Assembly: GCA_009930115.1 (NCBI GenBank)
Contig: RZYY01000018.1
Location: forward strand, 1-33,220
Reading direction: 5' to 3'
Origin: Sphingobacteriia bacterium
GTDB lineage: Bacteria; Bacteroidota; Bacteroidia; Bacteroidales; 4484-276
DNA length: 33,220 bases
The notes below the pieces were generated by a model. The model ran no database searches and was not told the origin of the DNA. It saw only the letters and a list, made by a program, of their open reading frames with translations. Of this stretch, positions 10,835 through 33,220 are shown piece after piece. The translations under genes were made by a program, and so were the position numbers. Positions within the stretch are counted from its first letter, which is position 1, and each line of letters opens with the position of its first letter.

Positions 10835-11624
10835 TGCGCAGATAGTGTTTATTTGTAAAAATTCTGGAACGTGAATAAATTGATGGAAGCTTCTTTGGTT
10901 TTATAAAATTGTGGGTGTCCATTGAAATAACATACTTGGATGCTGATTGTCGCTTTACACCAAGTGCACTGATGATTGGTTTCATCCATGCAGGATAATG
11001 GTCGTTAAATTTAACTTCAAGAATGAAACTGTCTTTCAGGGCATAACGTACCTTGTTTTCCTGATAAAGTTCATCAACAGCAGGAAATGCAACGCTACGC
11101 AGGTTTTTATCAAAAGTTACTCTGATGGTTTCGTCGTGTAATCCTAAAAAAGCTTCTCTTTCATAGATGACAAGTACTACCGGCCTTAGCCGGTCTGCGT
11201 GGTAATGATAAAAAAAGCGTTTTAGGTTTTCTTCAGCCAAAGGGTATTTGGTTTTATCAGGAAGGTAATCACGAAACTGCCCGCCATTAAACATCCCAAG
11301 TGCTTTTTCATATTCTGATGGTGCCCTGTTTTTTAAAATGGGGTCTTCGTATTTTCGTTTTATCTCGAAAAAAACTTTGGAATGATTGTTTTCGGGAATA
11401 TTGTATCCGCGCAACCTGTATTTTTTGCGATGTTTTATTCCTTCAACCTTTTCAAAGTAACAGTTGTATTCAGGGGTGTCAAAATAAATACTGCGTACAG
11501 TATAGTGATGGTTTTCTATTTGCAGCGAAAACTTATCATACTTCACAAATGGCGCTATCATGCTTCGCAGCATGTTCATTTTACTGTTGGGAACAAAATA
11601 TTTATATTCGTAACGCAGTGCCAT
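10827..11624 (-). CDS. VTC-domain protein (putative polyphosphate polymerase)
   Basis: The 265-aa protein matches the tunnel-shaped VTC domain that makes polyphosphate from ATP in yeast Vtc4. The ordered basic and acidic residues expected in the tunnel are visible: YEYKYF (E6, K8), VRSIYFDT (R44), RKKYRLR (66-72), FFEIKRK (E87, K89), VIYEREAF (R155), IRVTFD (R168), LEVKF (E203, K205) and SASKY (K230). The mapping of each to a Vtc4 residue is my inference. There is no SPX domain and no membrane helix, so membrane attachment would come from the coupled DUF4956 protein. It lies 5 bp after the HlyD-like gene and overlaps the DUF4956 gene by 8 bp. A related CYTH-type triphosphate enzyme is the main alternative. 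Confidence 0.85.
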   Translation of the reverse strand: MALRYEYKYFVPNSKMNMLRSMIAPFVKYDKFSLQIENHHYTVRSIYFDTPEYNCYFEKVEGIKHRKKYRLRGYNIPENNHSKVFFEIKRKYEDPILKNRAPSEYEKALGMFNGGQFRDYLPDKTKYPLAEENLKRFFYHYHADRLRPVVLVIYEREAFLGLHDETIRVTFDKNLRSVAFPAVDELYQENKVRYALKDSFILEVKFNDHYPAWMKPIISALGVKRQSASKYVISMDTHNFIKPKKLPSIYSRSRIFTNKHYLRNV

Positions 11625-16900: not shown

Positions 16901-16984
16901 AATATCGGTAATGCTGATGCACTCGTTCACACATTTTAAGGTTTGTGCCAGCATGTTGATTTGATTATCTGTGCTACTTTTCAT
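13925..16984 (-). CDS. Hybrid sensor histidine kinase: five PAS domains, HisKA, HATPase_c, receiver
   Basis: The 1019-aa protein has no membrane helix or signal peptide, so it is cytoplasmic. PAS-type domains occupy about 8-125, 135-260, 265-390, 395-510 and 518-640, several ending in the usual DIT motif. The HisKA box is NNISHEVRTPLNG with phospho-acceptor H664. The HATPase domain shows LLDNATKF (N783), DTGQG (810-814) and GSGLGL. The C-terminal receiver has an EDD acidic pocket at 906-908, phospho-acceptor D951 in LMDLKMP and K1001. Nothing follows the receiver, so the phosphate must pass to an Hpt or regulator encoded elsewhere, or flow back. Its ATG overlaps the TGA of the TPR kinase (ATGA), which indicates translational coupling. 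Confidence 0.93.
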   Translation of the reverse strand: MKSSTDNQINMLAQTLKCVNECISITDIDNYIIYVNDAFLRTYGYTEDELKGKHISIVKPTETRHENLKTITEKTIEGGWQGDLINRRKDGSTFPVRVSSSPVFDCKGKLIAMVGVTIDITESLETKKKLQESENWIRLITENSPDIIYVFLIEENRNIYINRSLVKILGYDDGELNDYSADFFKNIIHPDDLIQFETFYKTINDWEAGFVFGFEYRLRAKNGNWRWFKGNEKEFQRKNGKVISLIGTVQEITFKKEAEIKLRESEEKFRLIAENTGDTIVVINEKLTFSYISPSMFKLSGYKPEECFDKDLRYVFNENTYEQIKAFSATSPAEHKEPAIKTLSLELEMKHKNNAHIWVEATLSLMNQDSRQAASIIAVLRDITRRKKDEEQLLFQSLILDQIADLVTVTDLNGIITYVNNAVAKMMKKSREELLGKSVVIYGEDTSRGVSQNDIIEITNTNDSWRGEMINYNAAGEELTLEVKTQVLCDKLGNKIGLCGISTDITEYKKTEKKLKESVSMFQNLFNNMIEGFSLGEIITDEIGKPINWRFITVNQAHEYHTGLKSEEIIGKCVKDFFPDIEQYWLDFYGEVALTGKPNHFIGYNHNTGRYYEINAFSTEKGKFAAIFSDYTVKKEAELKLLEAKDKAEAADRLKTAFMNNISHEVRTPLNGIIGFADLIAEETVTPDEKNLYLKMLKQSNNRLIQTITDYMDISLIASGNLEVHPATFQPENLLLKLHDTYLEVCNQKKLKFSLLLPDDTDKGQLTTDEELLRKMLQHLLDNATKFTSQGSISLGMKKHSKTFEFFVKDTGQGIRQENLETIFKPFSQEDNRDTRGHEGSGLGLAIVRGIADLLGGKIHAESIIDKETTFTFTLPVNYFRKSPAEKPEKAALSTTDKKQVLLIAEDDFTSFKYFDVAFSKLPVKLLHAPNGKEAVKMCQQNPDINCVLMDLKMPEMDGFEATRQIKKLRSDLPVIAQTAFALSGDEYRAREAGCDDYLPKPISKKSLLEKLRQFGFWF

Positions 16985-19014
16985 AGAGAATAGCTTTGTT
17001 TCTGTTTTAAAGATTCTTTTTCTGTATTTGCAGACAGTGTAAAGGTGAATGTGGTTCCGTGATCGGGTTCGCTTTCAACCTGAATGGAACCATGGTGTTT
17101 TTCAATAAATTCTTTGGTTAGAATGAGTCCAAGCCCGGTACCTTTTTCATTCATTGTTCCGGGTTGCGACTGGCTTTGACTAATGTTGAACAATCCCGAA
17201 AGCTGTTGCTTTGACATACCAACACCGTTATCACTTACTTTTACAGTAATCTGGTTATTCTCAGTAATTGCTGAGAGGATTACCCTGCCGCCTTTGCAGG
17301 TAAATTTGACGGCATTGGAAAGAAGATTTCGCAGAACAGTATGGATCATTGCCCTGTCAGCAAACACTTCAATATTTTCAGTAACATGATTTTCAATCGT
17401 AATTTCTTTTTGTATGGCTGAATGATTTGCCAGAGCAATGGTTTCAGCAGCAAGCTCTCCAAGTGAAAATGTTTCCGGTGAAAATTTGATTCTTCCTGTT
17501 TTCGAGCGGCTCCATTCAAGCAGATTGGTCAGGAGATTAAAAGCCTGATTAGATGATTTGTGGACCATGTCGGCATATTCTCCGAGTATGTCATAGTTTT
17601 TTTCTTTGATTTCTTCGATCAGCAATTCTGAAAATCCTATCATTGCTGTAAAAGGGCTTTTAAGATCATGGGCAATGATAGAGAAAAATTTGTCTTTTTC
17701 GGCATTTGTTAAGGCAAGTTCCTGGTTTTGGGCTGAAATAATGATATTTTGTTCATTAAGTTTCTTCAATAATTTGCGTTGTTTCCTGATTTGAGCGATC
17801 AATATTAGGCTGAAAAAAACAAGTAAAAAAATAATCAGAATGGAAACGGTTATTATCTGGTTGAAATGTTTTTTGCGTTGCTGCAGCAGTAGTTCGTTTT
17901 GGGTTGCTTTTTGTTCAACAAGAATTTTCCTGATTTTCAGCTCCATATCTGCATTGTACATTTTATGCATGGTTTCGGTGTATGCAAAGAGCGAATGATA
18001 AGCTTTTTCGTAATCGCCTTTTTCGGTGTAAAGTCCGTGCAACAGTTCATTAGCCATTCTGATATAGGTAATGACACTGTATTGTGAAGATAACTCAAGT
18101 GCTTTTTCTCCGTATTTGATAGCCTGGTCAATTTGGGATAATCTTCTGTAAAGCCAGCCAGTATTGATCAGGATCAAAGGCAGGTCGGGATGATAATTTT
18201 CTTCGCCGATAATTTGGATGAGTTCATGATAAATCCCGAGCGCCTCAGTCATTTCGTTGATAGTATGATAATAAGCAGCTTCGATGTTTTTACCCGAAAT
18301 TACAATGTCGCTGATATGATAAAGGGTGGCAATGCTGTCGGAAAGTCTCAGGGTAATATTTAGTGAATCCTCAGTGTTTTTTAGTACCGGATAGTTGGAG
18401 CGCAGAAAAGCAAGTGTGTCTGGTGTAATTTGTTCTTCATCAAAAATTTTGCGCAATACCGGGTTATTGACGAAAATCTCGAAATAAATGGCAGCAAGAC
18501 GGTTGTATCCGTAGGCAAGTCCTTTGTTATCGTTTTGATTGATTACGAGCGGCAATGCTTTGTACAAAACAGTGCAGGCAGTCGAATAGTTGCCTGTTGC
18601 TCTGTACGCTTCACCAAGTTCAAGATAACACCATGAAAGCTCCTTATCAAGATGTAAATCTGAAAATATGTCAGCAGCTTTATTCAGTTGTTCGATAGCA
18701 TGTACCGGGTCTCCCCATTTTTTCCAGGCGGTGGCATTCAATTGTAAAGCTTTCCCAAGCTGAGGTTTTTGGTTCAGCGAATCGGCCAGATTAATGGCTT
18801 CTTCCGAAAACTCCAATGACTCATGAGCATCCGGCACAATTTCGGCGAGTTCAATCAGCAATTCGAGCCTGGCTAAAGATGCTGGTGTCTGCTTTATCAA
18901 TTGTCTGAGGCTGTCGGTTTCTGTTTTGTTTTGTGATATTCCGTTGAGCCAGATGGCTATACAAAGAAAGTTAAGCATCAATTTTATCCAGATAATCGTT
19001 TTTATTGATTTCAT
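16981..19014 (-). CDS. TPR-containing membrane sensor histidine kinase
   Basis: The 677-aa protein begins with a signal peptide (about 1-27). A periplasmic region of roughly 355 residues built from TPR-like helical repeats follows (for example ELGEAYRATGNYSTACTVLYKAL and INTGWLYRRLSQIDQAIKYGEKAL). One transmembrane helix spans about 387-409, then a short coiled coil leads into HisKA, with H449 in FFSIIAHDLKSPF. The HATPase domain has LLSNAVKFT, DNGVG and GTGLGL. This periplasmic-TPR architecture is common in Bacteroidota. The ligand is unknown. It lacks a receiver domain, but its stop overlaps the start of the 1019-aa hybrid kinase, so the two are probably made together. It lies 10 bp after the nine-PAS kinase. 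Confidence 0.92.
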   Translation of the reverse strand: MKSIKTIIWIKLMLNFLCIAIWLNGISQNKTETDSLRQLIKQTPASLARLELLIELAEIVPDAHESLEFSEEAINLADSLNQKPQLGKALQLNATAWKKWGDPVHAIEQLNKAADIFSDLHLDKELSWCYLELGEAYRATGNYSTACTVLYKALPLVINQNDNKGLAYGYNRLAAIYFEIFVNNPVLRKIFDEEQITPDTLAFLRSNYPVLKNTEDSLNITLRLSDSIATLYHISDIVISGKNIEAAYYHTINEMTEALGIYHELIQIIGEENYHPDLPLILINTGWLYRRLSQIDQAIKYGEKALELSSQYSVITYIRMANELLHGLYTEKGDYEKAYHSLFAYTETMHKMYNADMELKIRKILVEQKATQNELLLQQRKKHFNQIITVSILIIFLLVFFSLILIAQIRKQRKLLKKLNEQNIIISAQNQELALTNAEKDKFFSIIAHDLKSPFTAMIGFSELLIEEIKEKNYDILGEYADMVHKSSNQAFNLLTNLLEWSRSKTGRIKFSPETFSLGELAAETIALANHSAIQKEITIENHVTENIEVFADRAMIHTVLRNLLSNAVKFTCKGGRVILSAITENNQITVKVSDNGVGMSKQQLSGLFNISQSQSQPGTMNEKGTGLGLILTKEFIEKHHGSIQVESEPDHGTTFTFTLSANTEKESLKQKQSYSL

Positions 19015-19024
19015 GCAGTAGAAA

Positions 19025-22000
19025 TTAAAATGATTTTGGTAGTGTAAAGAAGAATTTACTACCCTTTCCTAACGAACTTTCAACCCAGATTTGGCCACCA
19101 TGTTTTTCGACAAATTCCCGGCAAAGAATTAATCCAAGGCCAGTACCTTTTTCATGGTTTGTTCCCGGTGTTGAGAAATTGCTGTCGATGCGGAATAATT
19201 TCTTTAAGTCATCTCTTGCAATACCAATTCCTGTATCCTGAACAATGACTTTTACCATCTGATCATTTTCGGTGAGAGAAACGTTAATTTCTCCATTTTT
19301 AGATGTAAATTTTACCGCATTGGAGATCAAATTGCGCAATATCGTATTAGTCATTCCTTTGTCAGCATAAACGGTGGCAATAGCTGGTAAACTGTGAGAA
19401 ATGGCAATGGATTTTTGGCCGGCAGCAGGCCGGAGTAATTCTATATTTTCTTTGATCAGACTCACCAGTTCGATATAAGAAGGCTCAAAAATTATACGGC
19501 CTGTCTGCGATCTGGACCACTCGAGCAGGTTTGTAAGCAATTCCAGTGCATGGTTGGATGATCGCAGGATGACTTCAGCCATTTCGTCTATTCCATCGTA
19601 GTCTTTTTGCCGGATTTGTTCAACCATTAGTTCGCTGAAACCTATTATTGCACTGAAGGGGCTTCTGAGGTCATGGGCAATGATTGAAAAGAATTTATCC
19701 TTTGATGCATTGAGTTCCCTGAGATGTTTCTCGTTTTTTTGAAGGGTTTCTTCAGTATGCTTACGAAATGTTATGTCCTGCATAGCTGCAAAAACCTGAT
19801 AGGGATGTCCTTCACCAGGATGAAACTGCGGTATGGCGTCAATAATCAGCCAGTTGTAAGTATCTGTTTCGGGGATGTAAATTCCAATAATTTGATTTAA
19901 CTGGCTTTTCCCGCTTCTCAATGCGACCATTGACGGATGCTCCTCAGGCGGAATTATTTCATATTTTTCGTTAATTACTTTCCACCGTTTGTCGTAGGAG
20001 TCTTTGCCAAGAAGCTGGTTTCGTGTAAGCCCGAGAATTTTTAGTGCAGCATGATTTGCATCAACAATTTTTCCACCGGCATCCTGATAGAAAATACCCT
20101 GCGACAGATTTTCAAAAAGAGTCCGGTATTTGGCTTCATTTTCAATGATAAACTGTTCTGTTTGTTTTTTTAACGTAATATCTCTCACATAGACTGCAAC
20201 TTTCTCAGTTAGCTTGTTATTCAGAAATATTGGATAAATATGGAACTCGTTCCAGTATTTTTCTCTGAAATCTTCGCCTTTTACAGGTTTACCTGTTTTC
20301 AGCACTTTTTGAACCATATCCCTTCGGTTTTGTGCTGTTGTCGGGGGTAAAAGGTCAAAAACATTTTTTCCGATCAAGGCTGCTCTGGTCAATGCAAATC
20401 TTTTGGCATGAGCTTCGTTGCTGTCAATCACTATTCCATCCTTATCGAGCAAAAACACCAAATCGTTGGTTGATTCCATGATTGTTCGTGCATTGGCTTC
20501 TGATTCGGCAAGCTGGCGTTCGAAATCTTTTCTTTCGGTAATATTTCTTACTATGGTCAGTACTTCTTCATTGTTAACCGGAACCATTCTTGCTTCGTAA
20601 TCCTGTTGTCCTTTGCCGGGAATTGTTAATTGATATTCAAATTGTTGAATTTCACCTGTTTTCAGTGCACTTTGTGTTTTTTCTTCCACCATATCGGCAA
20701 AATCGGAGGGAGTAATGTCGCGGTTATTTTTGCCTATTATTTCCTCTTTTTGATAGAATAATTCTCCTTTTGCTGCTTTATAATCGAGATAAACCCCGTT
20801 TTTATCCATTTTGAATACCAAATCAGGAATGGCTTCGATCAGTGCGCGGGTTTGTGCCTGGCTTTTTTCAAGAGCTTCATGATTGAGCATTCGTTGAGTG
20901 ACGTCGCTCCATGAAGCAACAAACCCGTCGCCGAATTTTGATGCTTTGATATCAAAAGCCCTTTTTAATCTCTTGTTTCCATAAACATCATCATACCAAA
21001 GTGATTCTACCAGCAGTTTTTTATCATTTTCCACAACGTTTGTGTATTCGTCGAATAATCCGTTGCTTTTGTGAGAGGGTAAAGTTTCGAGGAGACTTTT
21101 GCCAATTTGTTCCTGTTTGGAAAGGTTATTCAGCTGACAGGCCATATCGTTTACATAGTCAATGGTAAAATCGACGATTTTGCCTTCATCATTTCTTACT
21201 GCAGTGTATATTCCGAACGCATCCATAAGTACTTCGAGAGAGGATTCGAACTTTTGCTCGTTCAACCTGAGTGCTGACTGTGCCTGCTTGAATTCGTCGA
21301 TATTCTGGAACGACCCCTGAACCTTGGTAACTCTGCCGTTTTCATCTCTGACTGCTTCACCGTTTACCTTCACCCATACCCGTTTCTTTTTTGCAGTGAT
21401 GATTTCAATTTCCTCGTTAAACGGAATACCATCAGCAACACAATAATTAAACAGACTTCTGATTCTCTGTTGCCATTCCGGTGCATAAAACCCAATGGCT
21501 TCTTCGATGGTTGGAGAATAACCTGCAGGCATTTCATGAATTGCTGCCACAACTTCTGACCAAATTATCCTGTCTTCACCAACATTGACCATCCACCCTC
21601 CGAATTTTGCAGTTTCGCCTGCAATCCTTAAAAGTGTCAGGTTGGATTTGAGCTCATTTTCGATTGTTTTTTTGAGTGTTATGTCATCAACCATCCCTTC
21701 GAAATAAAGAATATTTCCTTCATTATCCTTTACTGCACGTGCTTTTTCGTTGACAAAGATTTTATCCCCGTTTTTTTTGATCCACACTGATTCCAAACCA
21801 TTTACTTCCCCTGTTTCTTTTAGCTCATACAGAAAGATTTCCCTGGGATTTTCGGGATCAAATCCATGCAGTTTTAAATTGCGTTGAACAAGTTGTTCGG
21901 CATCAGTATAGCCGAGCATCCTGACCAGTGCAGGATTGGCCATGATAATCCGGCCGTCCGGCGTAGTGCGGTAGATGCCAATTGGAGCATTCTCGAAAAG

Positions 22001-23212
22001 ATTTCGAAAATCTTCCTCACTTTTTCTGATTTTTTCTTCGATAATTCTTTTGTCCGTAATGTCTTCTCCGGAACTCAATGTGCCTGCAAATGAACCATCT
22101 TCGTTGTAAAGTATAACATTATGCCAAAAAATCAGACGTTCCTGATGATTGCAGGTTAAAATCGTATTTTCATAAAACTCGGCAGACAACTTTTCTCCTT
22201 TTGACATCATTTCGAAGACAGCTTTTACTTTCTCCCTGTTTTCTTCAGGTAAGAAGTTGTCAAACCAGTTTTTGCCGATCAGTTCTTCTTCTGTATAGTC
22301 CAGTAGCTCACAGCATTTCTTATTGGCCATTGAAATACACCCAAAACGATCAATTCTGAGAAAAATAAAACCAGCGAGATTCAGGTATAACTTTGCCGTA
22401 TCGCGTTCCTTTTTTATTTCCTGTTCATTTTTGATGCGATTGCTTATATCTCTGGCAAGACCCAAAACGTAGAAATGGTTTTCAAATTCAATTTTTCCTA
22501 AGGTAATCTCGGCTGGATAAAAACTCCCGTCTTTTTTTCGGTGTCTGACTTCAATGGTTTTTTCGGAAAGATGTCTCAGTGTGTTCCAGATGTTTTTCTT
22601 GTCAAGCCTCTTGGATGCGTCAGGATCAATATCAAATACACTCATCTGAAGCAGCTCTTCGTGGGAATAGCCTGTCAGGACGGATGCTGCTCTGTTTACA
22701 TCAACCAGGTTTCCTTGCATATCATGTAAAAACATAGCCTGATGACTTTGCTCAACGATCGCCCTGAATTTTATTTCACTTGCCTGAAGCGATTTTTCCA
22801 CCAGCCGGTAACGGGTAATGTCACGTCCAGTTACAGCAACTCCGTAAATTTTTCCCGATTTTGTTACAATTGGTCTGAAATAGAACTCAATGATTGCATT
22901 GTGTTCTGAAGCAGATGTTTCGAGTTCGATGTTAAATTCTTCATGTGTTTGAAGAACACGGTCATAATAGTTTTTCCATTTTTTTTGATTTAAAACCGGA
23001 ATTTTTTGATGCATGATATTTTCGCCAACAGATAGTTTCAGGCCGTAATTTTTAGAAGTTAACAGGTCAAAGGCCTTGTTTTTCCAAACCAGTCTGTACT
23101 TTTCATCCACTGCCCACATCAAGTCTGTTGTCATTTCCAGCAACATTTCCTGAATCTCTGCCGATGACAAGTCTTCAACATCCGGCTTTTTGTCTTTATC
23201 ATGTGTTTTCAT
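19025..23212 (-). CDS. Cytoplasmic multi-PAS sensor histidine kinase (about nine PAS domains)
   Basis: The 1395-aa protein has no signal peptide or membrane helix. I count nine consecutive PAS-type units of 120-145 residues between 1 and about 1161. Most begin with a FR-x-(I/L)-x-E-type helix and end in DIT or DIS (for example GRDITRYR, GLARDIS, GEDITDKR, VDDITLKK, VRNITERK, VRDITLKK, MQDITFRK). The kinase core follows: H1180 in FFSIIAHDLRSPF, the N-box NLISNAVKF near 1298, DTGIG and GTGLGL. There is no receiver. I cannot assign heme, flavin or other cofactors to any PAS unit. The core is very like those of the 677-aa and 715-aa kinases, so these are probably paralogues. It lies 55 bp after the 7TM kinase gene. 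Confidence 0.93.
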   Translation of the reverse strand: MKTHDKDKKPDVEDLSSAEIQEMLLEMTTDLMWAVDEKYRLVWKNKAFDLLTSKNYGLKLSVGENIMHQKIPVLNQKKWKNYYDRVLQTHEEFNIELETSASEHNAIIEFYFRPIVTKSGKIYGVAVTGRDITRYRLVEKSLQASEIKFRAIVEQSHQAMFLHDMQGNLVDVNRAASVLTGYSHEELLQMSVFDIDPDASKRLDKKNIWNTLRHLSEKTIEVRHRKKDGSFYPAEITLGKIEFENHFYVLGLARDISNRIKNEQEIKKERDTAKLYLNLAGFIFLRIDRFGCISMANKKCCELLDYTEEELIGKNWFDNFLPEENREKVKAVFEMMSKGEKLSAEFYENTILTCNHQERLIFWHNVILYNEDGSFAGTLSSGEDITDKRIIEEKIRKSEEDFRNLFENAPIGIYRTTPDGRIIMANPALVRMLGYTDAEQLVQRNLKLHGFDPENPREIFLYELKETGEVNGLESVWIKKNGDKIFVNEKARAVKDNEGNILYFEGMVDDITLKKTIENELKSNLTLLRIAGETAKFGGWMVNVGEDRIIWSEVVAAIHEMPAGYSPTIEEAIGFYAPEWQQRIRSLFNYCVADGIPFNEEIEIITAKKKRVWVKVNGEAVRDENGRVTKVQGSFQNIDEFKQAQSALRLNEQKFESSLEVLMDAFGIYTAVRNDEGKIVDFTIDYVNDMACQLNNLSKQEQIGKSLLETLPSHKSNGLFDEYTNVVENDKKLLVESLWYDDVYGNKRLKRAFDIKASKFGDGFVASWSDVTQRMLNHEALEKSQAQTRALIEAIPDLVFKMDKNGVYLDYKAAKGELFYQKEEIIGKNNRDITPSDFADMVEEKTQSALKTGEIQQFEYQLTIPGKGQQDYEARMVPVNNEEVLTIVRNITERKDFERQLAESEANARTIMESTNDLVFLLDKDGIVIDSNEAHAKRFALTRAALIGKNVFDLLPPTTAQNRRDMVQKVLKTGKPVKGEDFREKYWNEFHIYPIFLNNKLTEKVAVYVRDITLKKQTEQFIIENEAKYRTLFENLSQGIFYQDAGGKIVDANHAALKILGLTRNQLLGKDSYDKRWKVINEKYEIIPPEEHPSMVALRSGKSQLNQIIGIYIPETDTYNWLIIDAIPQFHPGEGHPYQVFAAMQDITFRKHTEETLQKNEKHLRELNASKDKFFSIIAHDLRSPFSAIIGFSELMVEQIRQKDYDGIDEMAEVILRSSNHALELLTNLLEWSRSQTGRIIFEPSYIELVSLIKENIELLRPAAGQKSIAISHSLPAIATVYADKGMTNTILRNLISNAVKFTSKNGEINVSLTENDQMVKVIVQDTGIGIARDDLKKLFRIDSNFSTPGTNHEKGTGLGLILCREFVEKHGGQIWVESSLGKGSKFFFTLPKSF

Positions 23213-23267
23213 ATTGTGATTTTATTGGGTAATAATTTACTTGTTTCTTATACTTTTATGACCATGG

Positions 23268-25415
23268 CTAACTTGTTTCAAATTTATTATTTTTTTGGAC
23301 AGGTAAAGTAAAATAAAATGTGCTTCCAATACCCTGCTGACTTTTCACCCATATTTTCCCTCCGTGTTTTTCGACAAATTCACGACAGAGGATAAGTCCC
23401 AGTCCGGTGCTGGGTTCTCCTTCAGTTCCATAAGTACTGTAATCTTCGTTTATGCGAAAGAGTTTTTCAATGTCAGAAGATTTAATCCCGACGCCGGTAT
23501 CGGTTACCTGAACTTCAATCATACTGTCAGCATTGGCATTTGCCTCAATGGTTACCTTTCCTCCCCTGAAGGTGAATTTTATAGCATTTGAGATCAAATT
23601 CCGAAACACTGACTGAATCATTTTTTCATCTACCAGCACATGTATATCAGGGTGAACATTGTTGATAATCCTGATTTCCTTTTTTGCCGCATTTTCAGCA
23701 AGTGTTTCCACACTCTGAATAACAAGGCGGATCAACGGATAATTAAATTTCTCGATAAACAACTCTTTTCGTTGCAGCCTCGACCATTCGAGCAGATTTT
23801 CGAGCAGGCCAAACAAGAGAAGGGCTGACTTGCGTATATCCTGGGCATAGCTTCTCATTTCGTCTATCGTCAGTTCGAATGATTCGTCGGTCATGAGTTC
23901 GGTAAAACCGAGGAATGCATTGAAAGGACTGCGAAGATCATGGGCAATAATTGAAAAAAAGCGGTCTTTTTCAGCATTGGTTCTTTCCAGCTCCATGTTT
24001 TTTGTTCTGATTTTTTCTTCTGCTTCCAGACGATCTGTAATGTCTTCAACCACACCGATACCGCCGGTAACTTCCCCGGTATCGCTGACAATGGCCTCAA
24101 AAATCACTCTTACGGGTGTTGTTTTATCAGCAGTTACTGATTTGTAAATTCCTTCCATTCTTGCTTTATTGCCTTCAAGCGCTGTTTTCAGGATACTGAC
24201 AATACGCTGGTCGGGCAAATTCATCATATTTAACCCGATCAGTTTTTCCCTTGATGAACCGATTATACGTACCAGTTCATCATTGCAAATCGTGATAATA
24301 CCTTCTTTGTCAAAATAAATGACTCCCAGCGGGGCATTCTCAACAATCAGTCTGAATCTTTCTTCACTCTCTCTTCGCCGTTTTTCGGCAAGGCGTCTTT
24401 CAGTGATGTCGTGCACGATGAGCATTTTGCCAAGTTCGGTTCCATGGTAATCAATTAATTGTGATGAAGTTATGCTGAAGTTTCTTAGGTTATCATTTTG
24501 CAGAATCTGAAATTCAAATTGGTGATTCAGCGAATTGGTTTGGACGAAGTGAATTACATCAGGATAATGATGAAACAAAGCATCTAAATTTATTCCGACA
24601 TCTTTTGAAGTGATTCCGAACAGTTGTTTTGCAGCGTTATTAAGATCAACCAGACGATTTTGCAGGTCGAAAACCAACACCGAATCAGGCAATTTATCAA
24701 AAAGCAGATTTCGGGCCATGGGAGCCATGCTGAACAAATTATACTGCGACAAACCGATGTAAATCACAGCAGCCATCAATGCGCTGGAAAACGGAACAGG
24801 GTCAAGTCCCCAGGGGAAAACTTTCAGCAGATAGGCAAGATAGACCACAAAGGGGATTAACGTACAAAAGAGAATAATTCCCGACTGCAGTCGAAAAACC
24901 GGGGCCGACCTGAGCCACATCCTGAACAGAAGAATGAAACTTAAGAGAAAAACCAGAATGGTGTAAATTTGATGCATCCAGTACCATGTTCCGGGCGAAA
25001 AAGCAAAAGCATGAAAATAGCCATTGTGGTGAATCATAGAATCTGTGAGGAAAAAATGATGGTAATCATTGGTTATTACCATCAGCGTTGTAATCACCGG
25101 AACTATTAAAACAGCAATGCGGAAAGGGATACTGAGTTTGTGTTTTTGTCCCGAGTAACTGATTACAAAGAAGAAGTAAAATGCTGGTATGTAAGGTATT
25201 CCCAAATATTCAAGGCGGTAAAAAATCCAGATAAAAGAAAACTGGAAGGAAGCAACTTCAAGAGCGTAAAAAGCCGAGTAAACAGCTCCTGCAACAAGTG
25301 ATAGGATAAAATAACCGATTCCCGGTATCTTTCTATAACTCCACAGTGCAATGATCAGACTCGCCGTGATCAGTGTTGACATGAAAACTATAAAGGCAAA
25401 AAGATTTAGAGACAT
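23268..25415 (-). CDS. Membrane histidine kinase with N-terminal 7TM region and two PAS domains
   Basis: The 715-aa protein starts with about seven transmembrane helices in residues 1-222, matching the 'histidine kinase N-terminal 7TM' type. Two PAS domains (about 235-345 and 350-462) each end in a DIT motif (HDITER, EDITDR), followed by a short coiled coil. The kinase core has H492 in FFSIIAHDLRSPF, NLISNAIKF, DTGVG and STGLGL. It has no receiver domain. The GTEGEPSTGLGL stretch near 670-681 is identical to the one in the truncated kinase at the right edge of the window, which points to a close relation. The ligand is unknown. It lies 45 bp downstream of the 1541-aa hybrid kinase. Confidence 0.92.
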   Translation of the reverse strand: MSLNLFAFIVFMSTLITASLIIALWSYRKIPGIGYFILSLVAGAVYSAFYALEVASFQFSFIWIFYRLEYLGIPYIPAFYFFFVISYSGQKHKLSIPFRIAVLIVPVITTLMVITNDYHHFFLTDSMIHHNGYFHAFAFSPGTWYWMHQIYTILVFLLSFILLFRMWLRSAPVFRLQSGIILFCTLIPFVVYLAYLLKVFPWGLDPVPFSSALMAAVIYIGLSQYNLFSMAPMARNLLFDKLPDSVLVFDLQNRLVDLNNAAKQLFGITSKDVGINLDALFHHYPDVIHFVQTNSLNHQFEFQILQNDNLRNFSITSSQLIDYHGTELGKMLIVHDITERRLAEKRRRESEERFRLIVENAPLGVIYFDKEGIITICNDELVRIIGSSREKLIGLNMMNLPDQRIVSILKTALEGNKARMEGIYKSVTADKTTPVRVIFEAIVSDTGEVTGGIGVVEDITDRLEAEEKIRTKNMELERTNAEKDRFFSIIAHDLRSPFNAFLGFTELMTDESFELTIDEMRSYAQDIRKSALLLFGLLENLLEWSRLQRKELFIEKFNYPLIRLVIQSVETLAENAAKKEIRIINNVHPDIHVLVDEKMIQSVFRNLISNAIKFTFRGGKVTIEANANADSMIEVQVTDTGVGIKSSDIEKLFRINEDYSTYGTEGEPSTGLGLILCREFVEKHGGKIWVKSQQGIGSTFYFTLPVQKNNKFETS

Positions 25416-25460
25416 ATTTCAATATTTTGATCAGCTGCTTATTTTTTTCAAATTTAATTA

Positions 25461-28400
25461 TTAACTGATTTTAATGCCAGCTTTATTTAATTTGAGCCAA
25501 AGCAATTCTTTTTTTAGCGGTTTGGCAATATAATCATCACAACCGGCCTGAAGAATACGATGCTCGTCACCGGTAAGTGCATGGGCAGTAACAGCAATAA
25601 TGGGTAATGGTTTTCTGAAGGATTTGATCTGTTTTGTAGCTTCAATACCATCCATTAACGGCATTTTGATATCCATGAGTACTAATGAAATTTCCGGATG
25701 GGTCCGGCACAATTCTACTGCTTCTTGTCCGTTTCGTGCGCGCATCAGATTTACCGAAGCTTTGCGCAGCAGAATGTCGAGAAAAAAATAATTGGAATCA
25801 TCATCCTCTGCTATCAGCACTAATGGTTCATTTTCATTATTTACTTCCGCAAAATTTTCGTTTGTTTTAGTTTTTGATGAAAATGTTGAAGTTACAGGCA
25901 GGGTAAATCTGAATTCGGAGCCTTTTTCTTTCTCCGAAATTACACTGATATCCCCTCCGAGTAATTTCAGAATACCTTTTGTGATCGTCAGCCCCAGTCC
26001 GCTTCCTTCATAATTGCGGGTGCTGCTGTTTTCTTCCTGGTTGAATGCATCAAAAATACTTTTGAGGGCTTCTGAACTTATTCCAATCCCGGTATCTTTA
26101 ACAAAAAACTCAATATGATCGTTCTCAATCTCATAACCGGTTGATACTTCACCAGCTTTTGTGAATTTAACGGCATTTCCTAAAAGATGAAAAAGCACTT
26201 TTTTCAGCAATTCCCGGTCGGATAATAACTGAATGTGTTGTTCATGAATTGGGGAAAGATAGCTGAATCTGATTTTTTTGACACGACATTTTTGTTCTAT
26301 AGTGCTGCACACTTCATCGAAAAGCTGATTGAGGTCGAATGTTGCAATAACAGGGGTAAGGTTTCCCGAAGCAATGAGCGATGCGTCCATATAATCGTTG
26401 ATGGTGTTGATGAGCCTTTCGGTGCTCGATTGAAGAATTTCCATGTAGGAATCCTTTTCTTCTTCGCTAAGTCCCGGTTGAGAAATGAGTTGCCCAAAAC
26501 CGGTGATGCCATTGAGTGGTGTTCGGATTTCGTGGGAAATGTTATTCATAAAAGCAGTTTTAAGCCGGGCACCTGCTTCTGCCTGGTCTTTGGCAACAAT
26601 CAGGTCTGCAATCATTTTCTTCCGGTCAGTAATATCTTCCTTAACACCGACGAAATGAGTAATTATACCCTCATCGTTGATTAGAGGAGATATGCTGACA
26701 CTTTCCCAGTAAAGCTCTCCGTTTTTCTTTTTGTTTAGCAGTTCGCCTGACCAGTCTTTACCACTGGTTATTGTTTCCCAGAGTTTTTTGTAGAAAGCTT
26801 CATTTTGTTCTCCCGATTTTAAAATATTAGGATTATGGCCGATGGCTTCTTCAGCCGAAAAACCGGTAAGCTGGGTAAATTTGGGATTGACGAACTCAAT
26901 GTTTCCATGTGGATCTGTAATAATGATACTTGCCGGACTCTGAATGATTGCTTTGGATAATTTAAGGCTGTTGAGCTCGGCATTTTTTTGTTCGATATAG
27001 ATACTGAGCTGATTGGCTATGATCTCGAGCATTTCCTTACTTGCCTTGTCGTAGGCATTCGGATTGGAGTAACTTTGGATAATCATCACACCAATCGGTT
27101 TATTGTTAATAATAAGCGGTACGCCCAGCCAGCATTCTGCTCTTGACCCTCTTAAAACAATCTTGTTTTGTTCGGCCAGACTCAGAATGTCTTTTTTTTG
27201 AAGAAGAAGTCCGTGTTTTTTCCGTATTACCAAACCCGTCAGTGAATTTGTTGCAGGCCATGATGGCGGGGTTTTGGTTTTTTCATCTGCTTCAAATGGT
27301 GAAGTCAGTAAACCTGTTTTTTCGTCGTAAAGCGCAATGATGAAGTTGGTGGTGTCGAGCAGAGTACTCAGCTCGTTGCGAACTACCTCAAAAAGTTGAT
27401 AAAGGTTTTTGGCTTTTACCACTGCATCAGCTATATTATATTGCACCTTGTTGACTGTATCGGTGTGGATTCGACGCGTTATGTCTCTGTAATTGCCTAC
27501 AATAGCCCTCACTCCCGATTCATTAAGCATGTTGGTGAGCGTTGCTTCCAGCCAGACTGTTGAGCCGTTTTTGTGAAGAGCTCTTACATTGAATCTTTTG
27601 CTCCCGCCGATTTGCATTCTCAGTAATTCGGTCAGGAGTTTTTTAACCATGATGGTGTCTTCCGGATGAACCATGTGGTAAACATTGGTGCCGACAACTT
27701 CTTCCGGATCATAACCCAGAATTGGTGTAAGTCCGGGGCTTTTATAAAGGATTGTTCCATCAATGGCATACAAAGAAATGATGTCTCTGCTGTTTTGTAC
27801 CAGCGATCTGAATTTCGCTTCCTGAAGCTTCAGCTCCTGTTCGGCCATTTTTTGATTTGTTATGTCAAGATTGAGAATGATGGCGCCTGTGATGTTCCCA
27901 TGTTGGTCATTAATCGGAGATGCCGAAAAAATGATGATTCGCTTTTCGCCCTTAAAGGTTATAATTTCGAGAAGTTCATCAGCAATATTTACCCCCTCTT
28001 TCAAACAAGGGAGAATGCCCCAGTCGCGCAGGTTAACCTTTTCTCCTGAATGAATTCTGATTGCAGTAAAGGAACTAAAATCTTCATTATTTATCAGTTT
28101 TTCTATTCCCCATAAATCTTTTGCAACATCATTTACTTTTACTACCATGCCGGTTTTATCCAAAAACCATATCCCTACAGGAAGGGTTTCGAATATTTTT
28201 TCCACGGTTAGTTCGGTATTTTTGGAAATTTCAAGCAAACGTTTACTTTCGGAGATATCGGTAATAAATCCTTCGAGAAATTCAACCTTATCGTCGCTGT
28301 CGTAAACTCCCTGCCCGCGTTCCCAGACCCATCTGATTTCACCGTTTTTTGTCACAATTTCGTATTCCGCTTCGAAAAAATCTTTTCTGCTGGTAAAATC

Positions 28401-30086
28401 CTGCCATTTGTTCCATATTTCATTTCTGTATTCAGGCAGAATGATGCTGTTGAAAGTTAGCTTGTTATTGTCGATAAAATCCGCAGGATCATATCCGGTA
28501 AGTTTTTTGCACCCTTCACTCATGAAAAGCATGGTCCAGTCTTTATCCATTTTGCAGCGATAAACCATGCCCGGAAGGTTGGAAATGAGTGTACACAATT
28601 GGCGTTGACTCTCGCTGATCTGGGTTTGAATTTTTTTTCTTTCGCTGATGTCTCTTGAAATGGTTATTATCCCGAAAGGTTTGCCGGTTTTGTCGAGCAT
28701 AAATGAAATGGAAACTTCTGCCCAGAATGTTTTTCCGTTTTTGTGGAATTCTTCCAGCTCAAGTGTCAATACCTCCTCCGAAATGTCATCTCCCTGAATA
28801 AGCTGAGCCATCTTTTCGCGGTAATACTTCAGGATGATTTGTAATGAGCCGGGGGTAAATATTTGTTCGGGACTCTGCTCCATTGCTTCTTCAACAGTAA
28901 ATCCCCTAAGCTTTTTAATGGAGGGGCTTACGTAGGTTATTTTCAGGTTTAAATCCAGCACTGTGATAGTTTCGCCAGTGTATTCGGTAATCAGTCTGAA
29001 TTTTTCTTCGCTTTCTTTCAGACGCTTTTCGGTTTCGATTTTGAACAAACAAAAACCAAGATCATCAGCCAATTCGCCCAGTAGCGATTTTTCTTCGTTT
29101 AAATACATGTCCTCAGCCGGGGTTGAAACAACCAATACTCCGAAAACTTTGTCGAGATGACTGATTAAACTGCACATTTGTGAGTGCCCTTCAATTTTTT
29201 CTAATTCCGGACAACCGGTGGAAATTGATCTGGAAGTATCATTCAGTACAATTTGTTTTTGCTCCAGGGCTTGTTGCATGCATAGCGGAAACCTTCCTTC
29301 ATAAAGCTCATTTTTCAATTTTTCAAAATCATGAAATAATCCTGATGAAGTTATGTTCGATACTTTCTTCTGTTCGTCAAGTATAGCAATCCAGGCTGAA
29401 TGATACCCCATTGTTCCTGTAAGATTCTCACATGTTTTGCTAAGGATGACCTGCGGATCGTTTTCTTTAATAATGAGCCGGTTAATTTTTCTGATACCGT
29501 TTAAAAGATTTTTCAAATGCTCCTGCCGAGAACTGAATTTGTGCTTATCAATTACCTTCCAGACCGTATTCATGAGCAATTGTAAATTATGGATATCACT
29601 TTCGGCATAATCAGTCTCTTTGTTGGCAACAGCTATTACGCTTACTATTTTGTCATTGACGATTATCGGGCAGACCATCAGTTTTTTAATTTTTACGTGA
29701 CCGCCGGTGTAATCTTTTGTTTTGTTTTGTTTTGGCTTAAAATTATTTACGATTATGGCTTTTCGATCTTTAATGGCTTTCTTCCAAATACCTTTTTCAG
29801 ACAGCTCGTAACAAGCTTGCGAATCAGGTGTTTTGTACTCGTCAGTCAGATCTTTTGACCAGGAACTTAATGTAAATTGTTTTTGCTCTTCGGAATATCG
29901 AAAAATAGTTCCGATCTTACTTTTGGTTAATCCAAGTGCTTCTTGTAAGATAAAATCTGTCAGTTCTTTTAGGGAATTGCTTTGATGGTCCAAAATACGA
30001 ACCAGACTATTGATCTGGTATTCAATGTTTTCAATGTAATTTTGCTCATTGTGGCTGCTGTTCGGGTCGGATTTTTTAGATTTCAT
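25461..30086 (-). CDS. Hybrid sensor histidine kinase: GAF-GAF-4xPAS-GAF-PAS-HisKA-HATPase-receiver
   Basis: At 1541 aa this is the largest gene in the window, and it has no membrane segment. Domain order is GAF at about 25-190 and 200-360, four PAS units at about 366-885, a third GAF at about 890-1040 (ECWLGVPLIINNKPIGVM), and a fifth PAS at about 1045-1165. HisKA follows with H1185 in NNISHEIRTPLNG. The HATPase has LLGNAVKF, where Gly replaces the usual Ser or Asp before the N-box Asn, then DTGIG and GSGLGL. The C-terminal receiver has an EDDD pocket at 1427-1430, phospho-acceptor D1472 (LMDIKMP) and K1522. The core closely matches the 1019-aa hybrid. The 284-bp gap upstream separates it from the cobalamin cluster, so it may have its own promoter. 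Confidence 0.93.
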   Translation of the reverse strand: MKSKKSDPNSSHNEQNYIENIEYQINSLVRILDHQSNSLKELTDFILQEALGLTKSKIGTIFRYSEEQKQFTLSSWSKDLTDEYKTPDSQACYELSEKGIWKKAIKDRKAIIVNNFKPKQNKTKDYTGGHVKIKKLMVCPIIVNDKIVSVIAVANKETDYAESDIHNLQLLMNTVWKVIDKHKFSSRQEHLKNLLNGIRKINRLIIKENDPQVILSKTCENLTGTMGYHSAWIAILDEQKKVSNITSSGLFHDFEKLKNELYEGRFPLCMQQALEQKQIVLNDTSRSISTGCPELEKIEGHSQMCSLISHLDKVFGVLVVSTPAEDMYLNEEKSLLGELADDLGFCLFKIETEKRLKESEEKFRLITEYTGETITVLDLNLKITYVSPSIKKLRGFTVEEAMEQSPEQIFTPGSLQIILKYYREKMAQLIQGDDISEEVLTLELEEFHKNGKTFWAEVSISFMLDKTGKPFGIITISRDISERKKIQTQISESQRQLCTLISNLPGMVYRCKMDKDWTMLFMSEGCKKLTGYDPADFIDNNKLTFNSIILPEYRNEIWNKWQDFTSRKDFFEAEYEIVTKNGEIRWVWERGQGVYDSDDKVEFLEGFITDISESKRLLEISKNTELTVEKIFETLPVGIWFLDKTGMVVKVNDVAKDLWGIEKLINNEDFSSFTAIRIHSGEKVNLRDWGILPCLKEGVNIADELLEIITFKGEKRIIIFSASPINDQHGNITGAIILNLDITNQKMAEQELKLQEAKFRSLVQNSRDIISLYAIDGTILYKSPGLTPILGYDPEEVVGTNVYHMVHPEDTIMVKKLLTELLRMQIGGSKRFNVRALHKNGSTVWLEATLTNMLNESGVRAIVGNYRDITRRIHTDTVNKVQYNIADAVVKAKNLYQLFEVVRNELSTLLDTTNFIIALYDEKTGLLTSPFEADEKTKTPPSWPATNSLTGLVIRKKHGLLLQKKDILSLAEQNKIVLRGSRAECWLGVPLIINNKPIGVMIIQSYSNPNAYDKASKEMLEIIANQLSIYIEQKNAELNSLKLSKAIIQSPASIIITDPHGNIEFVNPKFTQLTGFSAEEAIGHNPNILKSGEQNEAFYKKLWETITSGKDWSGELLNKKKNGELYWESVSISPLINDEGIITHFVGVKEDITDRKKMIADLIVAKDQAEAGARLKTAFMNNISHEIRTPLNGITGFGQLISQPGLSEEEKDSYMEILQSSTERLINTINDYMDASLIASGNLTPVIATFDLNQLFDEVCSTIEQKCRVKKIRFSYLSPIHEQHIQLLSDRELLKKVLFHLLGNAVKFTKAGEVSTGYEIENDHIEFFVKDTGIGISSEALKSIFDAFNQEENSSTRNYEGSGLGLTITKGILKLLGGDISVISEKEKGSEFRFTLPVTSTFSSKTKTNENFAEVNNENEPLVLIAEDDDSNYFFLDILLRKASVNLMRARNGQEAVELCRTHPEISLVLMDIKMPLMDGIEATKQIKSFRKPLPIIAVTAHALTGDEHRILQAGCDDYIAKPLKKELLWLKLNKAGIKIS

Positions 30087-30370
30087 TTGTTTTTAAGTAT
30101 TTTTCGGCCTTACTGATATTTGTTTGCTTTTTAGACTCAACCAAAAGTTGTTTAAATTTTCATTGTTGAAAGGAATTTATAGGCTGTTTAAATCTCATTT
30201 TGTGTGAATTGAGTTGAAAATAAGGTTATTACGAGGTTTGTGTGTGTTTTGTCTTTTGTTTCCAAATATTGTAAATATGTTCATCTGTAATTGTTTTTGC
30301 TGAAAATCAGTTTTTGTAATTTATTGAGCAGGAATAATTTCATTTATCAAACGGAGTACTTGGATGATTC
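30087..30370. other. Gap between the 156-aa gene and the 1541-aa kinase gene
   Basis: This 284-bp AT-rich gap carries no credible small gene. It should hold the promoter of the downstream kinase array, but I found no TAnnTTTG box on the minus strand and no strong hairpin that would end the cobalamin operon. Confidence 0.4.
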
Positions 30371-30841
30371 TTAACCGGCAGGATTTCCCGTTGTGCCATC
30401 AAAATCGGCCTGACTGGTGAGTGAAACGAATGCCGGAATGTTCACAATCATCCAATTATAGAAAGGATATACCTCATTAAAACAATCCGCACTCAGATTA
30501 TTTTTGAGAATATCTGCCAGAGTATTGAACAATGCCGGCCAGTAAGTGAAGCTGAAGCCGTGACTGCGGTATGATCTGAAGACCCATGCTATAGTCTCAA
30601 CAAAAACTTCTGGTTCGTATCTGTGAAAAAGAGAGATCATAAATCGAAAGTGATTGCGGTGGTTATCAAACATCATATTGATGTTCCCTGAACCTATCAG
30701 TTGCTGAATGTCCTCACGATTTTCGAACCTCTTGTTCAGTTCAGCAATCAGAATATCAGCTTTGCGCGTAAATTCTTCCAGTGATTTTGATCCAGGTTGC
30801 ATTAGCACTGAAGCGGAGGAGATCAATTCTTCTTTTTTCAT
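30371..30841 (-). CDS. Uncharacterised all-helical 156-aa protein, last gene of the cobalamin/kinase cluster
   Basis: I do not recognise the family. The protein is predicted to be almost entirely helical, cytoplasmic, and rich in aromatic residues in its central and C-terminal part. Striking patches are NHRNHFRFMISLFHRYEP (about 60-77), VETIAWVFRSYRSHGF and SFTYWPALFNTLAD. The pattern of spaced His, Arg, Trp and Tyr recalls a globin-like or sensor-bundle fold, but that is a guess. There is no Hpt-type AHxLKG, no receiver pocket and no helix-turn-helix. It starts 36 bp after the stop of the 370-aa kinase on the same strand. A regulatory partner of the cobalamin protein or of the kinase is the most economical idea. 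Confidence 0.7.
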   Translation of the reverse strand: MKKEELISSASVLMQPGSKSLEEFTRKADILIAELNKRFENREDIQQLIGSGNINMMFDNHRNHFRFMISLFHRYEPEVFVETIAWVFRSYRSHGFSFTYWPALFNTLADILKNNLSADCFNEVYPFYNWMIVNIPAFVSLTSQADFDGTTGNPAG

Positions 30842-30877
30842 GAAAGCATCATTTATCGATGGATAATTAGTTATTGA

Positions 30878-31990
30878 TCAGTTGTTTTTTATTGGTAAGG
30901 TAAAATAAAATTTACTTCCTTTTCCCTGCTCGCTTTCAACCCATATTCTTCCCTGGTGGCCGATAATTATTCGCCTGACGATACTCAGTCCCAATCCGGT
31001 ACTTTTCTCACCGGAAGTAGCTTGTACACTTATTTTGGCAAAAGGAACGAATATTTTATCCAGTTCATTTTTTGGTATGCCCTGTCCCTGGTCCTGAACA
31101 CTTACAAGTATTTCATCCCCGGTGCTGAAAGCATATACGGTAATGGTGGTATTTTTATGAGAATATTTTATAGCATTGGATATCAGGTTGTTCATTACCT
31201 GCTCAATTTTTACAGGGTCTGCACTTATTGGTGGAACAGGCTGGGGGATATTGAGAATGATATCTATTTCTTTATTTGCAGCTATGATCGAATTCATTTT
31301 TATATTTTTTCGCAACAAATCCTCCATCTCCACTTTCACTAAATTCAAACCAATCTTGCCTGATTCGATTTTTACCACATCAAGCAGTTCCTCCAGCAAA
31401 TTAAGCATAAACTGACTTGAATTTCTGATCATTTCAAGAATTTGTTTTAGTTCTCCGTTGATTTCATCCTCTTTTGATTCGAGTACAAAATCGCTAAACA
31501 TTAGAATGGAAGCAATAGGGTTGCGCAAATCGTGAGCGGCTATTCCGAGAAACTGGTTTTTAAGCTTGTTGAGCTGGTCAAGCTGAATATTTTTCTTTTG
31601 TAATTCTCTGGTGAGATTATTCAGGTCATTGTTCAGGTTTATCATTGATTGACGCAATTCTTCCAGTTCAATATTATTGACCTCGCCGATAAGAATTATT
31701 CCTGTTTGGGTTGGGATGGAAGTAAAATAAAGTGTTTCGGGCAGATTCCGGTAAGTGTTGATATTCAGCATCTGTTTGGTTACACCTTTTGTAAGCATCT
31801 GGTTGATATCGAGTTGTGCATTGAAATCGGTAAAGAAATCTTTCAGGGAAGTACCTGATAGTTTTTTACCGGCCAGTTTTTCCGCGTATTTACATGCATG
31901 GGTAATAGTGCCGTTATGGTCAACCATCAATTTTATGATCGAAGATTCATTATCGAGATATTCAATCAATTTGTTAAGTTCAACATCCAT
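30878..31990 (-). CDS. Cytoplasmic PAS-like sensor histidine kinase next to the cobalamin-binding protein
   Basis: The 370-aa protein has no membrane segment. Residues 1-106 form a single PAS-like domain (IIKLMVDHNGTITHACKYAEKLAGKKL, ending in IILIGEVNNI). A coiled coil at about 107-145 follows, then HisKA with H153 in FLGIAAHDLRNPI. The HATPase domain has NLISNAIKYS, DQGQG and STGLGLSIV. The kinase core differs from the FFSIIAHDL type of the large kinases. The ATG at 31990 is 2 bp from the stop of the cobalamin protein gene, so the two are almost certainly co-translated and probably interact. The output regulator is not encoded in the window. Confidence 0.9.
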   Translation of the reverse strand: MDVELNKLIEYLDNESSIIKLMVDHNGTITHACKYAEKLAGKKLSGTSLKDFFTDFNAQLDINQMLTKGVTKQMLNINTYRNLPETLYFTSIPTQTGIILIGEVNNIELEELRQSMINLNNDLNNLTRELQKKNIQLDQLNKLKNQFLGIAAHDLRNPIASILMFSDFVLESKEDEINGELKQILEMIRNSSQFMLNLLEELLDVVKIESGKIGLNLVKVEMEDLLRKNIKMNSIIAANKEIDIILNIPQPVPPISADPVKIEQVMNNLISNAIKYSHKNTTITVYAFSTGDEILVSVQDQGQGIPKNELDKIFVPFAKISVQATSGEKSTGLGLSIVRRIIIGHQGRIWVESEQGKGSKFYFTLPIKNN

Positions 31991-31992
31991 AA

Positions 31993-32631
31993 TTAATTAT
32001 TTTTATTGATGTAATTCTTTAATGAATTGATACTGGGAATAAAATCAACGTTGTGGTACTGTTGTACGATGTCAATTCCCCCCCATCGGAAAGCTTGTCC
32101 CCCGACAATCACAGGTGTTTCCGGGAATTTTCCGTTTATTTTTTCCAATGTAATTTTTAGTTCAGGCAGGTTGTAATAAATGCTTAGCGAAAGGCCGATA
32201 GTATCGGGTTTATGGCTTTCGATGAAGCTAATCATTGCGTCAAAAGGAGTGTTGGCACCAACGAAATAGCCATCCCATCCATACATTTCGAAAATATCGG
32301 CGATCATTTTTGCGCCAACCTGATGATATTCGTTGGCTACACAGGCAATAACGGCTTTCTTTCCGATACGTTCAATGTTGAAAATTTTAGGTTGCAATCT
32401 TATCATCATGTTTTCGGTGAGGGCAGTTGCCATGTGTTCGGTGGCTACTGAAATCAGATTTTTTTCCCAATATTCACCTACTTTGTAAAGGGAGCGCTGA
32501 AACAATTCTGTATAAATGGTTTCGACCGGAATTTTGTTTTCCAGCAGACTGTCAACAATGTCAAAACAGTCTTTTCGACGGGCATGGATCAGGTGTTCGA
32601 AATATTCGTCAACAAGTTCATTTTTAATCAT
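31993..32631 (-). CDS. Cobalamin-binding protein, putative adenosylcobalamin light sensor (CarH-like sensory half, no DNA-binding domain)
   Basis: The 212-aa protein consists of a four-helix cap (about 1-85) and a Rossmann-type B12-binding domain (about 90-212), as in MetH, corrinoid proteins and CarH. The cap has W55 then nine residues then E65-H66, the W-x9-EH signature of CarH-type photoreceptors. The B12 domain has E101-Y-H103-Q-V-G106, that is ExHxxG, with H103 as the expected lower cobalt ligand. Ordinary corrinoid proteins have DxHxxG. SLS (148-150) and VGGQAF (176-181) complete the B12 fold. CarH's N-terminal MerR-type helix-turn-helix is absent. The start overlaps the stop of the edge kinase by ATGA, and its stop is 2 bp from the next kinase. 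Light response is inference; a corrinoid or B12-level sensor is the alternative. Confidence 0.88.
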   Translation of the reverse strand: MIKNELVDEYFEHLIHARRKDCFDIVDSLLENKIPVETIYTELFQRSLYKVGEYWEKNLISVATEHMATALTENMMIRLQPKIFNIERIGKKAVIACVANEYHQVGAKMIADIFEMYGWDGYFVGANTPFDAMISFIESHKPDTIGLSLSIYYNLPELKITLEKINGKFPETPVIVGGQAFRWGGIDIVQQYHNVDFIPSINSLKNYINKNN

Positions 32632-33220
32632 GATAAATTGGTATTAGGTTCAATGGTTCTGGGTTTTGAAGGAAGATATAAATTGAAGGATGATCCTATT
32701 CCTAATTCACTTTCTACCCATATTTTCCCGCCATGCTTTTCGGTAAATTCTTTGCAAAGGATTAACCCCAGTCCGGTGCTTGGTTCTCCTTCAGTGCCTG
32801 TTCTGCTGATGTTGACATCAACTTTAAAAAGATTTCCAATCGTTTCTTCACTCATTCCTATGCCGGTATCGCTCACAGTGATAATGGTGTTGTCGTTTTC
32901 ATCCTTATGTGCTGAAATAGTGATTGTTCCTCCTTTGGGGGTAAACTTTACTGCGTTGGAGGTCAGGTTGCGTAATATTGTATCAAGCATGTGCAGGTCG
33001 CCGTATATCTCAAAATCTTCCGGTATTTGGTGATTGATTTCTATGTCTTTTTTTATGGCGGCATTCTGGATTAATTCAAAACTGTCGTTGACAATTCTTG
33101 TAAGTGAAAGAAACTGTGGATTGAATTCTATGGTTCCGCGCTGGAATCTTGACCATTCAAGCAGGTTTTCGAGAAGACGATACAGGCTCGAAGCGGAATT
33201 GCGCATGGTCACAATAAAAC
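32628..33220 (-). CDS. Histidine kinase, C-terminal part only (5' end outside the window)
   Basis: The visible part holds the second HisKA helix (LLENLLEWSRFQRG) and a complete HATPase domain with NLTSNAVKFT, DTGIGMS and GTEGEPSTGLGL, ending in LYLPSKPRT and a short tail. The phospho-acceptor His and all sensor domains lie beyond the right edge. A GTG near 33212 is unlikely to be the true start because the frame stays open and coding to the end of the window. Its TGA overlaps the ATG of the cobalamin protein gene, so it belongs to the same operon. The core resembles that of the 715-aa 7TM kinase. Confidence 0.9.
   Translation of the reverse strand, partial: FIVTMRNSASSLYRLLENLLEWSRFQRGTIEFNPQFLSLTRIVNDSFELIQNAAIKKDIEINHQIPEDFEIYGDLHMLDTILRNLTSNAVKFTPKGGTITISAHKDENDNTIITVSDTGIGMSEETIGNLFKVDVNISRTGTEGEPSTGLGLILCKEFTEKHGGKIWVESELGIGSSFNLYLPSKPRTIEPNTNLS

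Follow-up and report, generated by a model that had tools for sequence, protein, structure and literature searches.

The 33,220-nucleotide stretch analysed here (the window) carries neighbouring genes for a short cobalamin (B12) protein, a histidine kinase and a predicted stand-alone photoglobin (PG). Because the same trio recurs in distant relatives, it probably specifies a light-controlled kinase built from separate parts. We regard a split photocobilin-histidine kinase, in which an adenosylcobalamin (AdoCbl) module and a photoglobin acting in trans would together steer the kinase, as the probable reading of this locus.

The B12 protein (212 aa, 31993..32631, minus strand) consists of a four-helix cap at residues 7–79 (Pfam PF02607, B12-binding_2, 44.2 bits for a cut-off of 23) and a B12-binding Rossmann fold at residues 92–182 (PF02310, B12-binding, 60.7 bits, cut-off 32.1). 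Pfam found no helix-turn-helix or MerR-type DNA-binding domain in this ORF, which sets it apart from CarH/LitR transcription factors and agrees with the original prediction of a CarH-like module lacking such a domain. Direct reading of the protein confirmed G52, W55, E65, H66, E101, H103 and G106, and found the ORF and its two motifs exactly where they had been predicted: W55-x9-E65-H66, the predicted upper-face (adenosyl) pocket, at 32434..32469 and E101-x-H103-x-x-G106 at 32314..32331, both on the minus strand. By sequence, the nearest solved chains are the photocobilins 8J2W/8J2X (E 8.6e-21) and 8J2Y, followed by the light-responsive CtMerR 8JBS; methionine synthase and corrinoid proteins are more distant (E about 3e-7). 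In the sequence alignment, W55, E65, H66 and H103 correspond to Trp61, Glu71, His72 and the lower axial ligand His108 of SasPcob (published numbering, which the alignment indicates to be the chain index plus 6).

A 44-row alignment of the module (the window protein, 41 homologues, SasPcob and CtMerR) shows the W, the EH, the E/DxH and the Pro of GxxxP wherever a row spans the position (the fragment L080 lacks the cap), so these motifs are not there by chance. Three of the four elements of the published photoreceptor signature (GxxW, EH, GxxH and GxxxP, PMC11796333) occur in the window protein as published; the fourth, GxxH, reads N100-E-Y-H103 (NEYH), with Asn in place of Gly. In CtMerR this Gly contributes a main-chain carbonyl only (PMC11796333). 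The position is Asn or Lys in most short, unfused family members, and a strict signature search may therefore miss this subfamily. An AF2 model of the module built from two sequences was of moderate confidence (mean pLDDT 73.9, pTM 0.60), and 8J2W was its top Foldseek match. VIA-align gave Z 19.7 for CtMerR (rmsd 3.2, 208 aligned), 19.2 for 8J2W, 18.1 for a MetH fragment, 16.6 for AerR (7TE2) and about 16 for CarH; these values do not separate the B12 families, and the residues do. Sequence comparison supports a predicted CarH-type AdoCbl pocket in a protein that lacks a DNA-binding domain and lies beside kinases. The pocket part of the original CarH-like assignment stands, but with 8J2W/8J2X as nearest solved structures the best frame for the module is the photocobilins rather than CarH or AerR. 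The host genome encodes a corrinoid adenosyltransferase. A CarH/LitR-like MerR-B12 protein in which every signature element is present (L002, G000:C145:9549-10037) is encoded there too, beside a sigma-factor-like gene.

The coordinates suggest that the B12 module, the kinases and the PG gene form one operon on the minus strand. The stop codon of an upstream histidine kinase (C-terminal part, 32628..33220) overlaps the B12 start codon by 4 bp; a 370-aa histidine kinase (30878..31990; N-terminal PAS-like module with a coiled-coil linker, then HisKA and HATPase_c by Pfam) begins 2 bp beyond the B12 gene, and the unannotated 156-aa PG gene (30371..30841) follows after a further 36 bp. B12 protein and PG are thus separate polypeptides with a kinase gene between them. 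The window is the whole of contig C242, so the upstream kinase, which is not conserved with the trio, is truncated by the contig end. Pfam searches of the operon genes bore out the predicted kinase neighbourhood; the original prediction mentioned neither the truncation nor the photoglobin gene. The host assembly is 97.6% complete and 8.9% contaminated.

What is the 156-aa protein? PG had no significant match in Pfam, NCBIfam or PDB sequences, and its identity came from fused proteins. In Azospirillum, Ilyobacter and several genomes, the B12 relatives have an additional domain N-terminal to the cap, and the gene that follows usually encodes a histidine kinase (a GGDEF protein in Ilyobacter). 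The Azospirillum version of this domain is similar to allophycocyanin (E 1e-5) and to the SasPcob globin domain (E 1.1e-4), which identifies it as a photoglobin. The window PG in turn aligns to the photoglobin domain of the fused Ilyobacter protein with 44.6 bits in phmmer and 78.8 bits with a five-member profile, and tblastn over all plasmid records gave this match an E of 4e-7. Comparison of the ten stand-alone PGs with seven fused photoglobins by hhalign covered 117 columns (P 1.1e-4, reversed control 0.06) at a moderate probability (57%); the stronger link is therefore the one through Ilyobacter. An AF2 model of PG from its sequence alone, also of moderate confidence (pLDDT 66.8), retrieved mostly globins in Foldseek, including allophycocyanins and smURFP, but none significantly (best E 0.44), and its structural alignment gave Z below 13 for a helical protein; we therefore take the structure searches as support only. 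As judged by homology, the 156-aa protein is a stand-alone photoglobin, whose counterpart in photocobilins is fused to B12.

The association of the three genes is conserved. Ten stand-alone PG genes were found: one in the window, four lying next to B12 matches (L049, L050, L051 and L053) and five (L097–L101) from a PG-profile search of 391 genomes that was blind to B12 and returned eight genomes, three of them already known. All eight PG genes from the profile search adjoin a short B12 gene. Over the whole set, a short B12 gene adjoins PG in 10/10 loci and a histidine kinase lies in the same operon in nine; at the tenth, L098, no kinase was seen and the contig ends there. Together with the N-terminal module that these kinases share with kinases beside fused photocobilins, this recurrence points to a split photocobilin-histidine kinase operon. 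The B12 module, a polypeptide of its own without a helix-turn-helix, is not isolated: it has a conserved PG partner in all ten loci and one conserved type of kinase. Two gene orders exist: (i) B12-kinase-PG in the window, L049, L100 and L101; and (ii) B12-PG-kinase in L050, L051, L053, L097 and L099. In the B12 tree the second group and L098 form a clade (support 0.92), and the window's own gene-order group is weakly supported (0.25).

Nearer to the host, a genome scan for near homologues of the B12 protein returned one truncated locus. In G009 (L011/L080), the only relative in the same family, a B12 gene broken by two in-frame stops is followed by a 111-aa kinase fragment; this points either to decay of the system or to a faulty assembly. 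Both genes were absent from the other family members searched, and viral contigs held no relatives of PG or of the split-type B12 proteins.

The partner kinases also connect the split and fused systems. Their N-terminal modules are homologous to those of kinases beside fused photocobilins over 128 columns (P 1.1e-7). When compared with ordinary PAS domains, those of the hybrid kinase in the window, the split-operon module reached P 5e-5 over only 40 columns and the fused-photocobilin module P 0.21. The module is thus PAS-like, and the match between split and fused systems is the longer and stronger one. That hybrid kinase (1541 aa, 25461..30086, minus strand; GAF, PAS, HisKA, HATPase_c and receiver) lies downstream of PG and is a candidate output, because a 2119-aa kinase-type gene comes after the B12-kinase-PG trio of L049 and the partner kinase of L053 itself carries a receiver. 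Seven histidine kinase genes, two of them with receiver domains, stand in a row on one strand at window positions 13925-33220, and this row contains no separate DNA-binding response regulator. Farther along the window, at 10145-11624, a gene for a DUF4956 membrane protein adjoins one for a VTC-domain protein.

Does PG bind a bilin? In SasPcob, Asp270 holds biliverdin and Trp296 touches both corrin and bilin (PMC10979010). Their counterparts in the window PG are Asn60 and Trp86, with a spacing of 26 residues in both proteins. The corrin-contact Trp is invariant in all 18 aligned globin sequences. The bilin-Asp position is Asn in the ten stand-alone PGs and in Ilyobacter and Asp in the seven other fused photoglobins; AbPcob, with His, is also an exception (PMC10979010). 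No PF01126 heme oxygenase was found in the host genome, nor in the split-type genomes G472, G657, G558 and G456. This absence is weak evidence, since most fused-type genomes lack PF01126 too, and heme oxygenase was dropped as a separator of Asp from Asn globins (only 2 of 26 genomes carry PF01126). Given the Asn instead of the bilin Asp and no PF01126 in the host, bilin binding by the stand-alone PG is doubtful. The next most likely reading, which we nevertheless consider unlikely, is that of a two-chromophore photocobilin in split form whose PG still binds a bilin despite the Asn and extends the response to red light: PG does belong to the photoglobin/phycobiliprotein family, and AbPcob retains partial biliverdin binding (occupancy about 20%) and a red-light response (PMC10979010), but the Asn is uniform among stand-alone PGs. 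Near L014/L082, a heme oxygenase gene (G339:C1:2476058-2476612) stands some 2 kb from a fused B12 gene and the kinase that goes with it, which is consistent with bilin use in that fused system.

How might the split photocobilin-histidine kinase work? We infer that the 212-aa protein would bind AdoCbl with His103 as lower ligand and with W55, E65 and H66 forming a pocket above the adenosyl group. The separate PG would dock in trans on the corrin edge through Trp86, replacing the fused globin domain of photocobilins, and the resulting complex of B12 module and globin would act on the N-terminal module of the kinase. Light, expected to be green, would break the Co-C bond and move the E65/H66 helix, and this movement would disturb the dimer of the B12 module and thereby switch autophosphorylation on or off, with the signal probably leaving through the downstream hybrid kinase. 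There is precedent for action in trans: SasPcob and AbPcob alter the activity of an isolated diguanylate cyclase in a light-dependent manner (PMC10979010). Points that weigh against this reading are the Asn in the GxxH element, the moderate confidence of the structure models, the contamination of the assembly, the broken same-family locus and the weak support for the window's gene-order group. More tentatively, PG could be a separate, bilin-free subunit that docks by its corrin-contact Trp and forms, with the B12 module, a detachable light-sensing input for a dedicated type of kinase.

Other ligand-based roles of the B12 module can be weighed against this light-driven mechanism. The module might report B12 supply or the state of the cobalamin to the kinase irrespective of light, much as proteins of the AerR type inform their partner. 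The fold of AerR, itself a stand-alone B12 module, is similar (Z 16.6), MAG-type assemblies say nothing about light exposure, and an unfused member of the same B12 family lies beside a corrinoid adenosyltransferase gene (L068). The W/EH adenosyl pocket, common to light-responsive CarH, CtMerR and photocobilins, is however kept throughout, and HaAI-2E, the single protein tested that lacks the signature, failed to bind AdoCbl (PMC11796333), so that we find a pure cobalamin or redox sensor improbable. A corrinoid protein of a methyltransferase system is very unlikely indeed. The fold is common to MetH and a monomethylamine corrinoid protein, and NCBIfam models of MtgC, MtbC and the pyl_corrinoid family do match weakly, but far under their cut-offs (34.2 bits against 370 for the best such model); the CarH model outscores every methyltransferase model, and no methyltransferase gene was present among the operon genes scanned. 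We rejected a methyltransferase subunit because photoreceptor structures come first both by sequence and in Foldseek, and model scores, nearest solved chains, the 44-row alignment and Foldseek all indicate that the close relatives are not of this kind.

The B12 family also occurs in other settings. L052 and about 15 similar loci (L054-L060, L062-L067, L069 and L076) encode short, unfused B12 proteins whose pocket residues are the same; the genes lie between an upstream gene for a PAP2-type membrane protein and a downstream alpha-amylase family gene and are accompanied by neither kinase nor photoglobin. In L072, L073, L074 and L075 the short B12 gene lies directly upstream of MlaE-type permease, ABC ATPase-like and MlaD-like genes, which suggests a link with lipid transport. 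At L068, a CobA/CobO/BtuR corrinoid adenosyltransferase gene (L068:7112-7642) is immediately followed by the gene for a short B12 protein of the window-module family, a neighbourhood consistent with AdoCbl as its ligand. The function of stand-alone photocobilins has been called less clear (PMC10979010). An operon that conserves a B12 module, a globin and one type of kinase makes the question of the partner directly testable, and with the globin as a protein of its own, experiments can include it or leave it out to learn what it does. As a small green-light switch that controls a kinase in trans, such a module would be useful in optogenetics.

It is already known that photocobilins couple to output enzymes and, from BBAG-2, that globin and B12 genes can be separate (PMC10151467). 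In the papers accessible to us, we did not find the combination of a conserved split trio, a single type of kinase and a globin without the bilin Asp; links between photoglobins and kinases may already stand in Schneider 2022 or Cheng 2016. In the BBAG-2 clusters (pre-2 PcyA clusters and Myxococcales), globin and B12 genes are separate neighbours, as in the window, but they are tied to bilin biosynthesis (heme oxygenase, pre-PcyA) and the globin has been shown to bind biliverdin; the accessible text describes no kinase partner, whereas the window operon has one. The Cys-containing RGMC motif given there for BBAG-2 is absent from the window PG, whose single Cys is C120. CarH/LitR proteins (5C8A-5C8F) share the W-x9-EH and ExH motifs, the cap and the B12 fold with the window module, but they carry a MerR DNA-binding domain that the module lacks. 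AerR (7TE2), likewise a stand-alone B12 module of similar fold that is thought to act on a partner, pairs with the transcription factor CrtJ and has no globin partner; it ranks below the photocobilins in sequence and fold searches, and the window neighbours scanned are kinases. The photocobilins SasPcob (8J2W/8J2X) and AbDPcob (8J2Y; PMC10979010) combine, like the window trio, a CarH-type AdoCbl pocket with a photoglobin domain, and they act on an output enzyme, also in trans, for which we propose the neighbouring histidine kinase as the window counterpart; their globin is fused to the B12 domain, whereas the window has a separate PG gene without the bilin Asp. Closest in layout are the fused photoglobin-B12 proteins with an adjacent kinase (L017 of Azospirillum thermophilum, L081, L084 and L086), which have the same sensory domains and a homologous N-terminal kinase module; there globin and B12 domain form one polypeptide and the globin retains the Asp, whereas in the window the two are split and the Asp is Asn.
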